From assembly GCA_029559155.1 (NCBI GenBank), contig JAKQCM010000408.1, forward strand, positions 1 through 41,220: a stretch of DNA of 41,220 nt, in the 5' to 3' direction. The number at the start of each line of letters is the position of its first letter. The first letter of the stretch is position 1. This DNA comes from Chloroflexota bacterium. Lineage in GTDB: Bacteria > Chloroflexota > Anaerolineae > Promineifilales > Promineifilaceae. A program made the position numbers and the translations under genes. Positions 195 to 4,130 of this stretch are shown in pieces. The notes under the pieces are model-generated. The model saw only the letters and a program-made list of their open reading frames with translations. It ran no database searches and was not told the DNA's origin.

Positions 195-330
195 CGTAGC
201 TGCTGTTCTATTGGATGCTGGTTGACAGCGGCGTGTGCGCAAGAAAGGTTTCAATCAATTCATTCAGCGTTATGTTGGAGACGGATGTTTAATCTGCGCT
301 CGACAATCCGCACTTACCCAGGAGGGAGTG

Positions 331-3300
331 ATGTGTAAACGTGTGGTTTGCTTGGTGTTGATCGTTTTCGTGCCGGTTGTGTGTTTGTTTGTGTTGTTGG
401 ATTTTGGCCGGGAAACGGCCGTAGCCGCCCCTACCGATTCTCCTATCATCATCAACGAAATCCACGCCGACCCGGATAGCGCAAATGGTGATGCGAATGG
501 TGATGGGGTAATCGGTTCTGATGATGATGAATTTGTCGAATTGGTAAATAACGGAAGTACGTTGATAGATCTGAGTGGTTGGAAACTGTACGACAGCTTG
601 AGTACCCCAACGTTGCGCCATACCTTTGCTGCAGGCACCTTGTTGCCGGAGGGGTGTGCGATAGTTGTATTTGGCGGCGGCAATCCAACGGGCAGTTTTG
701 GCGGCAGTCTGGTCCAGACGACTGGCAGTCTGGGATTAAATAATGGCGGCGACGCCATCACGCTGTATGATGCGGCTGACACGGCCGTTATCTCCTACAC
801 CTACGGCAGCGAAGGCGGCGACAATCAGTCCCTCACGCGCAGCCCGGACATTACCGGAGCCAGCCCCTTAATTAAACATACCCTTGCTGCCGGTTCCAAT
901 GGGTTGCTGTTTTCTCCTGGCACCCATGTTGATGGCACGCCCTTTGCCTCTTGCGAATTACCCCCATCGGCCGATCTGGCGGTGACAAAAACCGGCCCCA
1001 CCATCGCCGCGCCGGGGGAAAGCGTGGTGTATCTTGTCCGGGTGCAAAACGTGGGCGTCCTGACGGCCGTGCAAACCATCATCACCGACAACCTGCCGAC
1101 CGGTCTGACCTACGTGGCCGACAGCAGCGGGTATCCTCTGCCGCAGCCGATCACCCAAACGGTGGCCTGGCAAGTTGGCGATCTGCCGCCACAAGCCGAC
1201 ATGCAATTTAGTGTGACGGCGACCCTGGGCACGGCCGTTTCCGGTTCCATCACCAACACCATCCGGGCGGCCACGGCAGCAACCGAAACAACCCAGAGCA
1301 ATAATGTGGCGACGGCCGTCACCATCATTACCAGCCGTGACGTGGTGATCGACGCCGTGCATTACGATGGCTACGAAGGCGTGCTCGACGAAGCGGTCGC
1401 CTTGCGCAACGTGGGCGAGCAGCCGGTAGACGTGGGCGGCTGGCAAATTAGCGATGGTTCGGCGGCGGCCGTGATTCCGGCGGGTGTGGTTATTCCGGCG
1501 CATACGGCCGTCTGGCTGGCCAACGACGCCCTGGCCTTTCAACGACAGTTTGGCCACTTGCCCGATGTGGCGAAAACGGCCGTTGGACTGCCCTCGCCGC
1601 TGCCACTGCTGACCGGTTCCTGGCCGGGTTTTGCCAATGACGGCGATGAAGCGCTGCTGATTAACGCGGCCGGAATTTTAGTAGACGTGCTGGTGTACGA
1701 AGCGGGTAATACCAATCAAACCGGCTGGCTGGGCGCGGCGATACGGCCGTATGTGGGCAGCGGCCTGCCGGTGGCGGGGCAAATTGTTTACCGGATGCGC
1801 GACCAGCTTACCGGCCAGCCGGTGCCGGACACCGACACGGCCGCCGATTGGGCGCAGTCCACCACGGATGTGATTAACGGCCGTAAAGTGCGTTACCCTG
1901 GCTGGGACCTGGATGCGTTCTTTTTTACGACGCAGGTGACGGAAACGGCCGTTATCACCCTGGCCATTGCGCCCGACAACGCCTATGAAGCCATCGTCGC
2001 CCAAATCGATCAGGCGCAAAACCGCATCCACGTCGGATCGCTCACCGTCGAGAGCATCGCCATCAGCGAAGCGCTCATCCGCGCCGCCGGGCGCGGCGTC
2101 TCGGTGACGCTGCTGCTGGAAGGCGGCCCGGCCGGCGGCCTGACCGATCAAGAAAAATATATTTGCCGCGAAATCGAGCAGGCTGCTGGCGCGTGTTGGT
2201 TCATGATCAACGATGCGACGGCCAAAATTTATGATCGGTATGGTTATGTGCACGCCAAATACATGCTCATCGACGAAACCTGGGCGGTCATCAGCAGCCA
2301 GAATTTTTCGCCGGACAGCCTGCCCAACGACGATAAATCAGACGGAACGTGGGGGCGGCGCGGTCTGGTGGTGATTACCAATGCGCCGACCGTGGCGCAG
2401 CACGTTCAGACCTTGCTGGCCCATGATTTTGATCGGACCCATCAGGACATTGTGCATTGGCAGCCAACGGCCGATTGGCTGCCAACGCCCGGTTTTGTGC
2501 CCATCACCCAGACGGGCGGCATCACCTATGCCGTGCGTTACGCCGATCCGCTGGTTGTTTCTGGTGTCTTTCCGCTTGAGATTATTCAGTCGCCGGAAAA
2601 CAGTCTGCGCGATGTGGACGCTTTGTTGGGGCTGGTGAAGCAGGCCGGATTGGGGGACAGGGTACTGGTGGAGCAGTTATATGAACGGCCGTATTGGGGA
2701 CCAACCACCGGCGGCGCGCCTGCCACAGACCCGAACCCGCGCCTGGAAGCTTATATTGCCGCCGCACGGCGTGGCGCAGTGGTGCGCCTGCTGCTGGACA
2801 GCTATTTTGATGACGAGGCCAGCCCCACCAGCAACCGGGCGACTTGTGAGTATGTGAATCAACTGGCGATGACGGAACATTTGCCATTGGCGTGTACGCT
2901 GGGCAACCCGACCGGGCTGGGGATTCACAACAAAATGGTGCTGGTGGAGGTAAACGGCCGTGGGTACATTCATGTTGGCAGCCTGAATGGTTCCGAACAA
3001 TCGCACAAAGACAACCGCGAGTTGGCTTTGCAAATTCAATCGGATGCCCTATTTACCATGCTCGCCGATATGTTTTTGCATGATTGGCCCTATCGGGTGT
3101 ACCTACCCGGCATTTACCATAATTATGTCGGCGCAGCCAGCCATCTGCTGATTAGCGAGGTCTTATATGATCCGCCCGGACCCGACTCCAGCGAATTTGT
3201 CGAATTGGTTAATCCGACGCCGCAAATCTGGGACTTGAGCCACTACAGCCTCGGCGATGCGGTCAACCCCACGGATTTTGAGGACGTGCGCCGTTTCCCA

Positions 3301-3687
3301 CCCGGGACGCTGCTGGCGCATGGCGAGACCCTGGTGGTGGCTGTTAGCGGCATCGATTTTTTTGCAGAATATGGCATGTATCCAGATTTTGAGATTTTGA
3401 ACACAGTAACGGCCGTGCCCGACTTGCTCGACGATTTAGCCTGGGGTGATCCGGCGACGTTTTTGCAGCTTGGCAACCTGGGCGATGAGGTAATCTTGCG
3501 CGATGCGCAAGATCAGATTGTGGATGTGGTGACGTATGGGGCAGGGAGCTATCCGGGCGTGGTTGGCTGCCCCCTGGTCAGCTTGTTAAACGCCAGCCTG
3601 GAGCGCTGGCCTTATTGGCGGGATACAGATAATTGTCTGATGGATTTTAGAGAGTGGCCATTTCCCAGCCCGGGTGCGGTCCCGTAG
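331..3687 (+). CDS. Secreted lamin-tail / DUF11 / phospholipase D-like protein
   Basis: A 1,118-residue exported protein. I chose ATG 331 because AGGAGG (320-325) precedes it and a hydrophobic signal segment (about residues 5-24) follows directly; the open frame back to 235 has neither. Domains in order: lamin-tail domain (IIINEIHADP, DEFVELVN), DUF11 adhesin-like repeat (ADLAVTKTGP), a second lamin-tail-like domain, two phospholipase D-type halves, a VYLP motif near residue 921, and a final lamin-tail domain (LLISEVLYDP, SEFVELVN). The first HKD motif is intact (HAKYMLID, His near 641). In the second (HNKMVLVE, His near 866) the Asp is Glu. It probably acts outside the cell on phosphodiester bonds (extracellular DNA or lipid); the substrate is not evident. 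Thirteen ACGGCCGT sites lie in the gene. Confidence 0.85.
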   Translation: MCKRVVCLVLIVFVPVVCLFVLLDFGRETAVAAPTDSPIIINEIHADPDSANGDANGDGVIGSDDDEFVELVNNGSTLIDLSGWKLYDSLSTPTLRHTFAAGTLLPEGCAIVVFGGGNPTGSFGGSLVQTTGSLGLNNGGDAITLYDAADTAVISYTYGSEGGDNQSLTRSPDITGASPLIKHTLAAGSNGLLFSPGTHVDGTPFASCELPPSADLAVTKTGPTIAAPGESVVYLVRVQNVGVLTAVQTIITDNLPTGLTYVADSSGYPLPQPITQTVAWQVGDLPPQADMQFSVTATLGTAVSGSITNTIRAATAATETTQSNNVATAVTIITSRDVVIDAVHYDGYEGVLDEAVALRNVGEQPVDVGGWQISDGSAAAVIPAGVVIPAHTAVWLANDALAFQRQFGHLPDVAKTAVGLPSPLPLLTGSWPGFANDGDEALLINAAGILVDVLVYEAGNTNQTGWLGAAIRPYVGSGLPVAGQIVYRMRDQLTGQPVPDTDTAADWAQSTTDVINGRKVRYPGWDLDAFFFTTQVTETAVITLAIAPDNAYEAIVAQIDQAQNRIHVGSLTVESIAISEALIRAAGRGVSVTLLLEGGPAGGLTDQEKYICREIEQAAGACWFMINDATAKIYDRYGYVHAKYMLIDETWAVISSQNFSPDSLPNDDKSDGTWGRRGLVVITNAPTVAQHVQTLLAHDFDRTHQDIVHWQPTADWLPTPGFVPITQTGGITYAVRYADPLVVSGVFPLEIIQSPENSLRDVDALLGLVKQAGLGDRVLVEQLYERPYWGPTTGGAPATDPNPRLEAYIAAARRGAVVRLLLDSYFDDEASPTSNRATCEYVNQLAMTEHLPLACTLGNPTGLGIHNKMVLVEVNGRGYIHVGSLNGSEQSHKDNRELALQIQSDALFTMLADMFLHDWPYRVYLPGIYHNYVGAASHLLISEVLYDPPGPDSSEFVELVNPTPQIWDLSHYSLGDAVNPTDFEDVRRFPPGTLLAHGETLVVAVSGIDFFAEYGMYPDFEILNTVTAVPDLLDDLAWGDPATFLQLGNLGDEVILRDAQDQIVDVVTYGAGSYPGVVGCPLVSLLNASLERWPYWRDTDNCLMDFREWPFPSPGAVP

Positions 3688-3735: not shown

Positions 3736-3770
3736 AAGAACCTTTGCCCTTTTAAAGGGCAAAGGTTCTT
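3736..3770. terminator. Bidirectional intrinsic terminator
   Basis: A perfect 17-bp inverted repeat with a 1-nt centre (3736-3752 and 3754-3770), flanked by an A-run on the left and an AT-rich stretch on the right. It lies between the convergent lamin-tail/PLD gene (+) and the small peptide gene (-) and can end transcripts from both sides. Confidence 0.85.
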
Positions 3771-3824: not shown

Positions 3825-3875
3825 TGTCTAGTTGTCAAACAAATGAGAATTAGAGTGTCTAGCTGCCAAACAAAT
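3825..3875. repeat. Two-copy direct repeat containing the 3' end of the small peptide gene
   Basis: The 20-mers at 3825-3844 and 3856-3875 match at 18 of 20 positions with a 31-bp offset. The second copy includes the last codons and stop of the RiPP-like peptide (Leu-Phe-Gly-Ser-stop on the minus strand); the first would encode Leu-Phe-Asp-Asn-stop. A local duplication of the gene's end is the simplest reading. Confidence 0.6.
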
Positions 3876-4038
3876 CAGCAGGATCAACACCTTTTTCGCT
3901 GTCGCCGCCACCGACCGGCGAACCGGCTCTGGTTGTGATGACCCCTTCGTAAATTACTGCTGGGGTTTCATACGGCAGGGGTTGATTGTTTTCAGTGATG
4001 TTGGTTTCAACCTCGGAGGGCTGTTGATTCATGAACAT
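3859..4038 (-). CDS. Small RiPP-precursor-like peptide (59 aa)
   Basis: The start is ATG 4038, seven bases after AAGGAGA; the open frame back to 4074 would bypass that site. The peptide has an acidic, Asn/Gln-rich N-terminal half, then YETPAVIYEG (residues 23-32), then RAGSP (37-41), a Gly run, and an acidic tail ending DLFGS. Tyr23, Pro26, Val28 and Gly32 fit the spacing YxxPx(hydrophobic)xxxG that RiPP recognition elements read in lasso-peptide leaders. A possible core could start at Gly39 with Asp46 as the eighth residue, which is speculation. No cyclase, protease or radical SAM gene is in the window. It sits alone between its own promoter and a strong terminator, so it is probably made as an abundant monocistronic transcript. 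It could instead be an unmodified small structural or signalling peptide. Confidence 0.65.
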   Translation of the reverse strand: MFMNQQPSEVETNITENNQPLPYETPAVIYEGVITTRAGSPVGGGDSEKGVDPADLFGS

Positions 4039-4101
4039 TTGTTTGTCTCCTTGTGCGCTGCGTCTGATTAGCACGCTGGCTCCTACAAAATATTAAGGCT
4101 T

Positions 4102-4130
4102 ATTATGCCGAATCTCAGGCATCATGTCAA
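4102..4130 (-). promoter_or_regulatory. Near-consensus promoter of the small peptide gene, with a palindrome in the spacer
   Basis: On the minus strand TTGACA (4130-4125), a 17-bp spacer, and CATAAT (4107-4102) form an almost ideal sigma-70-type promoter. The inverted repeat ATGCC-N8-GGCAT (4105-4122) sits in the spacer and touches the -10 box, a typical place for a repressor site. The leader would be about 57 nt. The rest of 4039-4232 is AT-rich and shows nothing else. Confidence 0.65.

Follow-up and report, generated by a model that had tools for sequence, protein, structure and literature searches.

The window analyzed here is a stretch of 41,220 nucleotides (positions 1 to 41,220 of contig JAKQCM010000408.1, assembly GCA_029559155.1) from a Chloroflexota bacterium of the family Promineifilaceae. 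On its reverse strand, an open reading frame at positions 3859-4038 encodes a 59-residue peptide which, as originally described, contains the sequence YETPAVIYEG, the motif RAGSP (residues 37-41), a Gly run and an acidic tail. The following features were assigned to the locus:

235..3687, + strand: gene for a predicted secreted LTD/PLD/DUF11 protein of 1150 aa, convergent to the peptide gene (Pfam)
3736..3770, − strand: intrinsic terminator with a stem of 16 pairs followed by T5 (sequence)
3859..4038, − strand: gene for an LppA-like precursor peptide of 59 aa (open reading frame and peptide-family alignments)
3865..3885, − strand: acidic C-terminal signature DPADLFG (residues 52-58), conserved in the family of the window's genome
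3916..3927, − strand: AGSP (residues 38-41), with A38, G39 and P41 invariant
3919-3921, − strand: Ser40, presumed modification site by analogy with Ser3 of the LPP core (see below)
3943..3972, − strand: leader motif YETPAVIYEG (residues 23-32), presumed RRE-binding site, with Y23 and P26 invariant
4047..4052, − strand: Shine-Dalgarno sequence AAGGAG (sequence; kept in the relative L067)
4102..4130, − strand: sigma-70-type promoter TTGACA-17-CATAAT (hexamers kept in L067)

The start codon ATG is located at 4036-4038 on the reverse strand. An alternative GTG start resulting in a 71-aa form is also possible, but the 59-aa form was preferred, since AAGGAG is found 8 nt upstream of the ATG and is unchanged in L067, a relative of the same genus. 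The promoter matches the consensus at 11 of 12 positions, and both hexamers are identical in L067 although the DNA just upstream differs at many places. Judged by its number of occurrences, the pattern does not exceed chance (1 site compared to 1.4 in shuffled sequences). In the promoter spacer, an imperfect dyad (ATGCC-N8-GGCAT, 4104-4123), in which one base differs in the relative, represents a candidate operator. The stem of the terminator consists of 16 pairs instead of the 17 bp originally given. A 23-nt direct repeat with 87% identity (3825-3847 and 3856-3878), also found in L067, means that a partial copy of the 3′-end of the gene lies just downstream, where a similar frame would read SHLFDN-stop. 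A search with Rfam around the gene revealed no known RNA element.

The open reading frame is a real gene under purifying selection. A chance ORF was ruled out by homologues in Anaerolineae, detected in single-genome searches down to E=7e-12, and by the comparison with the orthologue in L067 (dN 0.061, dS 0.228, dN/dS 0.27), which was also found in genome G659 as L215. In the block YETPAVIYEGVITTRAGSPVGGGDSEKGVDPADLFG, the protein is identical in L067 while third codon positions are changed. An HMM built from the peptide family matches the window's ORF at 3.4e-21; the NCBIfam and Pfam models gave no match to the precursor. Within the window's own genome its match is unique. A plasmid or phage origin was also considered and rejected, as the precursor had no match in a plasmid collection and no confirmed relative among viral contigs.

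Conservation of the peptide family

The peptide family comprises at least 66 distinct peptides in the fetched Anaerolineae loci. These 66 were scored by a regular expression, which one further peptide did not fit. The offset between the Tyr of YxxP and the residue following AG is 17 in all 66 scored peptides, and this residue is a Ser or a Thr in 64 of them. The position before AG is occupied by Arg (50 of 66), Gln (10 of 66) or Phe (5 of 66). In 29 aligned homologues, Y23 and P26 of the leader as well as A38, G39 and P41 are invariant; the YxxP..RAGSP block, whose conservation the original prediction had proposed to examine, is conserved. If the core is counted from Ala38, Ser40 is located at core position 3. 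An acidic residue is found at core positions 7, 8, 9 and 10 in 4, 4, 15 and 15 of the 66 peptides, respectively. The peptide of the window contains neither Cys nor Trp. A phylum-wide profile search added few further members, so the family seems to be centred on Anaerolineae.

Maturation genes in related genomes and in the genome of the window

In other Anaerolineae families, the precursor gene is part of a recurrent operon with the order NTP_transf_5, WETA, HprK-like, PqqD, precursor, C25, S26, WETA, C25 (for example in L131, L133, L141 and L154), where WETA is the name used here for a domain characterised by WETATExDtxGFxLYRs. Outside the window's family, a PqqD gene was identified within 8 kb of the precursor in 11 of 22 well-flanked loci (at least 3 kb on both sides; not independent by descent), compared to a chance rate of about 0.8% each as calculated from the PqqD density in the window's genome. 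In the same 22 loci and the same distance, HprK-like genes were found 6 times, archaeal-type S26 genes 8 times, C25 genes 9 times and NTP_transf_5 genes 3 times; these counts are descriptive, since part of the loci counted had also served as seeds for the cassette HMMs, whereas the gene positions are independent of the seeding. The identities of PqqD, S26, NTP_transf_5 and C25 were confirmed on examples by Pfam or NCBIfam HMMs. ABC exporter pairs adjoin the precursor in L134 and L143 only. The prediction of a RiPP precursor with a leader of the type read by RiPP recognition elements (RRE) is thus borne out by the conserved block and by relatives that adjoin PqqD-type RREs.

In the window itself, no maturation gene was found with our own profiles for PqqD, HprK, S26, NTP_transf_5 and the WETA domain, in agreement with the original prediction; the C25 profile gave only a marginal match (E=4e-4), to the LTD/PLD protein. 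In the main scan of the window's family, none of 22 precursor loci had machinery within 8 kb, with genome G151 as a later exception. The corresponding genes are located on other contigs of the window's genome, so that the designation as an orphan holds for the window but not for the genome. Of the two findings that the original prediction named as its refutation, a genome devoid of RRE or modifying enzymes and a lack of block conservation in homologues, neither was obtained. Contig C295 carries WETA-PqqD-C25-WETA-C25, and on contig C279 PqqD, an HprK_rel_A-like kinase and NTP_transf_5 form one operon. The latter (L039:5630-8670) has no recognised precursor; PqqD is preceded by a protein that weakly matches a Tat-type signal. 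Contig C11 contains S26 and C25 genes near NadD-Obg, C244 an HprK-like gene and C375 a further NTP_transf_5 (the NTP_transf_5 genes of this genome being PF14907 matches). Genome G151 encodes an orthologue of the C244 kinase (2e-58, 35-37% identity) in the interval separating NrdJ from the precursor gene, a position that ties the C244 kinase to the window's locus.

The distribution of these genes was determined in 19 genomes of the window's family. All 14 genomes that have the precursor, but none of the 5 that lack it, contain an S26 gene at E 1e-16 or better (one of the latter, G133, has a weak S26 match at 9e-7). With a threshold of E<1e-12, an RRE was detected in 13 of the 14 and in none of the 5, respectively. 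For HprK, the numbers are 12 of 14 and 1 of 5. Four of the five precursor-less genomes belong to one genus, so that only a few independent losses underlie the co-occurrence. As the window's assembly is 93% complete and distributed over 519 contigs, absences from this genome are provisional.

The key residues of the encoded proteins are intact. In all aligned RRE copies, those of C279 and C295 included, an Asn is kept together with an Asp at a distance of 37 residues; in the RRE of LPPs, the residues N33 and D70 hold the leader (PMC13381572). In searches against the PDB, the RRE profile matched the lasso RRE TbiB1 most closely (2e-15), and LppB (9x8z) at 1.5e-11. The cassette S26 proteins match TIGR02228 (archaeal-type, SipW-like), and their domains keep SMxP, HR and GD with the following Asp. 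This includes the C11 copy, in which the Ser, His and Asp positions are intact (sigpep_I_arch match at 4e-12). The HprK-like proteins share an invariant His, the P-loop GxSGSGK[S/T] and an Asp, while their matches to curated HprK families are under the curated cut-offs. As a sequence search of the PDB with the kinase profile returned mostly P-loop noise, a structure model was used for the kinase-like protein of L086, which is encoded beside a precursor (pLDDT 86.4). The model aligned to 238 residues of PEPCK (Z 16.2, 3.7 A; Foldseek E 2.5e-8); HPr kinase was not among the fold-search matches listed. PEPCK and HPr kinase have a common fold, and the model suggests that the L086 protein adopts this PEPCK/HprK fold, which does not in itself imply kinase activity.

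Comparison with known systems and proposed maturation

The Linear Polyphosphorylated Peptides (LPPs) have been reported to be restricted to Bacillota, and their role is unknown (Nat Commun 2026;17:6633; PMC13381572). The third core residue of LPPs, Ser3, is polyphosphorylated, and a helper protein (RRE) delivers the peptide both to a kinase and to a signal-peptidase-like protease (PMC13381572). LPPs and the Anaerolineae system are alike in the YxxP leader, a discrete RRE with an Asn/Asp pair, an HprK-like kinase, an archaeal/SipW-type signal peptidase, an NTP transferase and the lack of a cyclase. Further likenesses are the polysaccharide genes in the vicinity of some copies and an acceptor Ser which, with a core starting at Ala38, would also be placed at core position 3. 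LPPs also have an MsbA-like exporter, to which the ABC exporter pairs of L134 and L143 may correspond. In contrast, the extended LPP consensus YxxPxVLxHQxIxFETxxS was not found: the Anaerolineae motif reads YExPAxIYExxxxTRAGSP, without HQ and FET, and the distance from Y to S is 17 compared to 18 in LPPs. Thr occurs at the acceptor site in the Anaerolineae family, whereas the LPP kinase LppK did not accept S3T (PMC13381572). In addition, the phylum is different, the Anaerolineae operon contains C25 proteases and WETA-domain proteins, and the machinery is dispersed in the window's family. Because it departs from the extended consensus, the system is described here as LPP-like and was not classed as an LPP member.

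Paeninodin-type phosphorylated lasso peptides have the RRE, the HprK-type kinase and the NTP transferase in common with this system (PMC13381572). They differ in that no macrolactam cyclase or B2 was identified and no ring acid is present here, and their leaders are mostly WxxP (PMC13381572). Weak best or near-best matches of the HprK-like and PqqD-like proteins were obtained to SynChlorMet (ScmC TIGR04249, ScmD TIGR04248), with best scores of 33 and 45 bits lying below the curated cut-offs of 125 and 100; the radical SAM enzymes ScmE and ScmF are absent from the AGSP cassettes. The C279 operon, with PqqD, an HprK_rel_A-like kinase and NTP_transf_5, resembles the HPr-rel-A system (TIGR04352 kinase, TIGR04353 PqqD), but its kinase scores 83 bits against a cut-off of 200 bits and no precursor was recognised beside it. 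Among the papers searched, no report of such a cassette in Chloroflexota was found.

Taken together, the peptide probably gives rise to a linear, LPP-like RiPP which is modified by a kinase and whose enzymes act mostly in trans. Modification, leader binding, cleavage site, export and function of the window's peptide are drawn here from analogy with the systems above. A discrete PqqD-type RRE (C295 or C279) would bind the YxxP leader. An HprK/PEPCK-fold kinase, with C244 as the best candidate and C279 as an alternative, would then modify Ser40 of AG[S/T]P, probably by phosphorylation; the sequence of the window's peptide presumed to carry it is AGSPVGGGDSEK. That these kinases and RREs act on the window's peptide we infer by analogy. 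NTP_transf_5 may add to or extend the modification of Ser40. The archaeal/SipW-type signal peptidase of C11 would remove the leader near T36/R37, possibly assisted by secreted C25 proteases, for which an extracellular cut behind Arg37 is conceivable. In gingipains, C25 proteases are Arg-directed. The product would probably be exported and act at the cell surface. Where the precursor is separated from the enzymes, as in most of the window's family, maturation would take place in trans.

Secreted neighbours and alternative readings

Where the flank was long enough, precursors of the window's family are mostly found near an LTD/PLD secreted-protein gene and often near NrdJ. Of 24 loci checked, 18 have an LTD/PLD homologue close to the precursor, among them loci that lack NrdJ. 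According to a crude hydropathy rule, a predicted secreted protein of at least 200 aa directly adjoins the precursor in 14 of 18 loci of the own family (26% expected) and in 24 of 38 loci outside of it (42% expected; a modest enrichment, p=0.006). The large neighbours vary and include proteins with an alpha-amylase domain, SdrD_B/GEVED adhesin-like proteins and DUF285 proteins, several of them predicted to be secreted (L119:8636-11977, L057:449-3610, L120:1874-5527, L126:1-5172 and L121:3637-5499). This arrangement and the Arg preceding AGSP in most family members would also fit a peptide that serves as a tag or cofactor of its large secreted neighbours (LTD/PLD, C25, SdrD_B, DUF11), with sortase-like attachment or processing by C25 after Arg37 and the kinase and RRE in accessory roles. 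This is considered unlikely, as the two genes of the window are convergent and form no operon, 15 of 66 peptides carry Gln or Phe instead of Arg, and the enrichment outside the family is modest and derived from a crude predictor.

Somewhat less probable still is a RiPP modified by a radical SAM enzyme, in which the RRE would hand the peptide to a SPASM enzyme. Genomes G181 and G094 of the window's family carry a cassette in which RRE, HprK and radical SAM genes accompany a YxxP precursor that contains Cys, at the NadD/Obg locus (L197:4013-14278 and L202:2165-12630), in the order WETA-HprK-PqqD-radical SAM-precursor-C25-S26-WETA-C25. Of this radical SAM branch, C11 in the window's genome retains only S26 and a C25 at the same place. 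In L149 (3665-5245), the gene immediately after an AGSP-type precursor encodes a PapB/QhpD-like radical SAM maturase, and the window's genome has four SPASM matches. Against this reading, the window's peptide lacks Cys and Trp, a radical SAM gene is missing from most AGSP cassettes, and the inspected SPASM loci (C21, C52 and C112) adjoin neither an RRE cassette nor a recognisable precursor. One of these, C52 (L233:5353-8469), carries a tandem pair of radical SAM/SPASM genes, of which one includes a PqqD-like part, and has no recognisable small precursor nearby.

A small non-modified regulatory or structural protein with an incidental likeness to RiPP leaders would agree with the lack of nearby maturation genes at most loci of the own family. 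It is very improbable, however, given that homologues in other families lie in RRE/kinase/protease operons, that the 17-residue register is fixed, and that the presence of the precursor tracks S26 and RRE across genomes. The originally proposed lasso peptide, with B1/B2 removing the leader and Gly39 or Ala38 cyclised to Asp46, was rejected as hardly conceivable: it would account for the YxxP leader, the closeness of the RRE profile to TbiB1 and the Thr two residues before Ala38 (T36, where many homologues carry Val), but the window's genome (assembly 93% complete) has no match over the cut-off to B2 transglutaminase (PF13471), its sole strong Asn-synthase match (PF00733) is AsnB-like and located in a polysaccharide-type locus, no lasso-type cyclase was recognised in the relatives' cassettes, and the ring positions have no conserved acid.

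The reading as a linear, kinase-modified and LPP-like precursor may be extended, tentatively and with less than even confidence, to the Anaerolineae in general. These bacteria might possess a widespread undescribed cell-surface RiPP system with RRE-guided HprK-type kinases and SipW-type peptidases, whose linear AG[S/T]P peptides work together with large secreted adhesin- or protease-like proteins, one dispersed enzyme set serving unlinked precursors. If true, an LPP-related system would exist beyond Bacillota, in the Anaerolineae, a frequent group among genomes from sludge and reactors. It would greatly enlarge the set of precursor, RRE, kinase and peptidase sequences and indicate a role at the surface. 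RRE-guided maturation would then work on precursors located apart from their enzymes, which genome mining based on co-localisation would miss.
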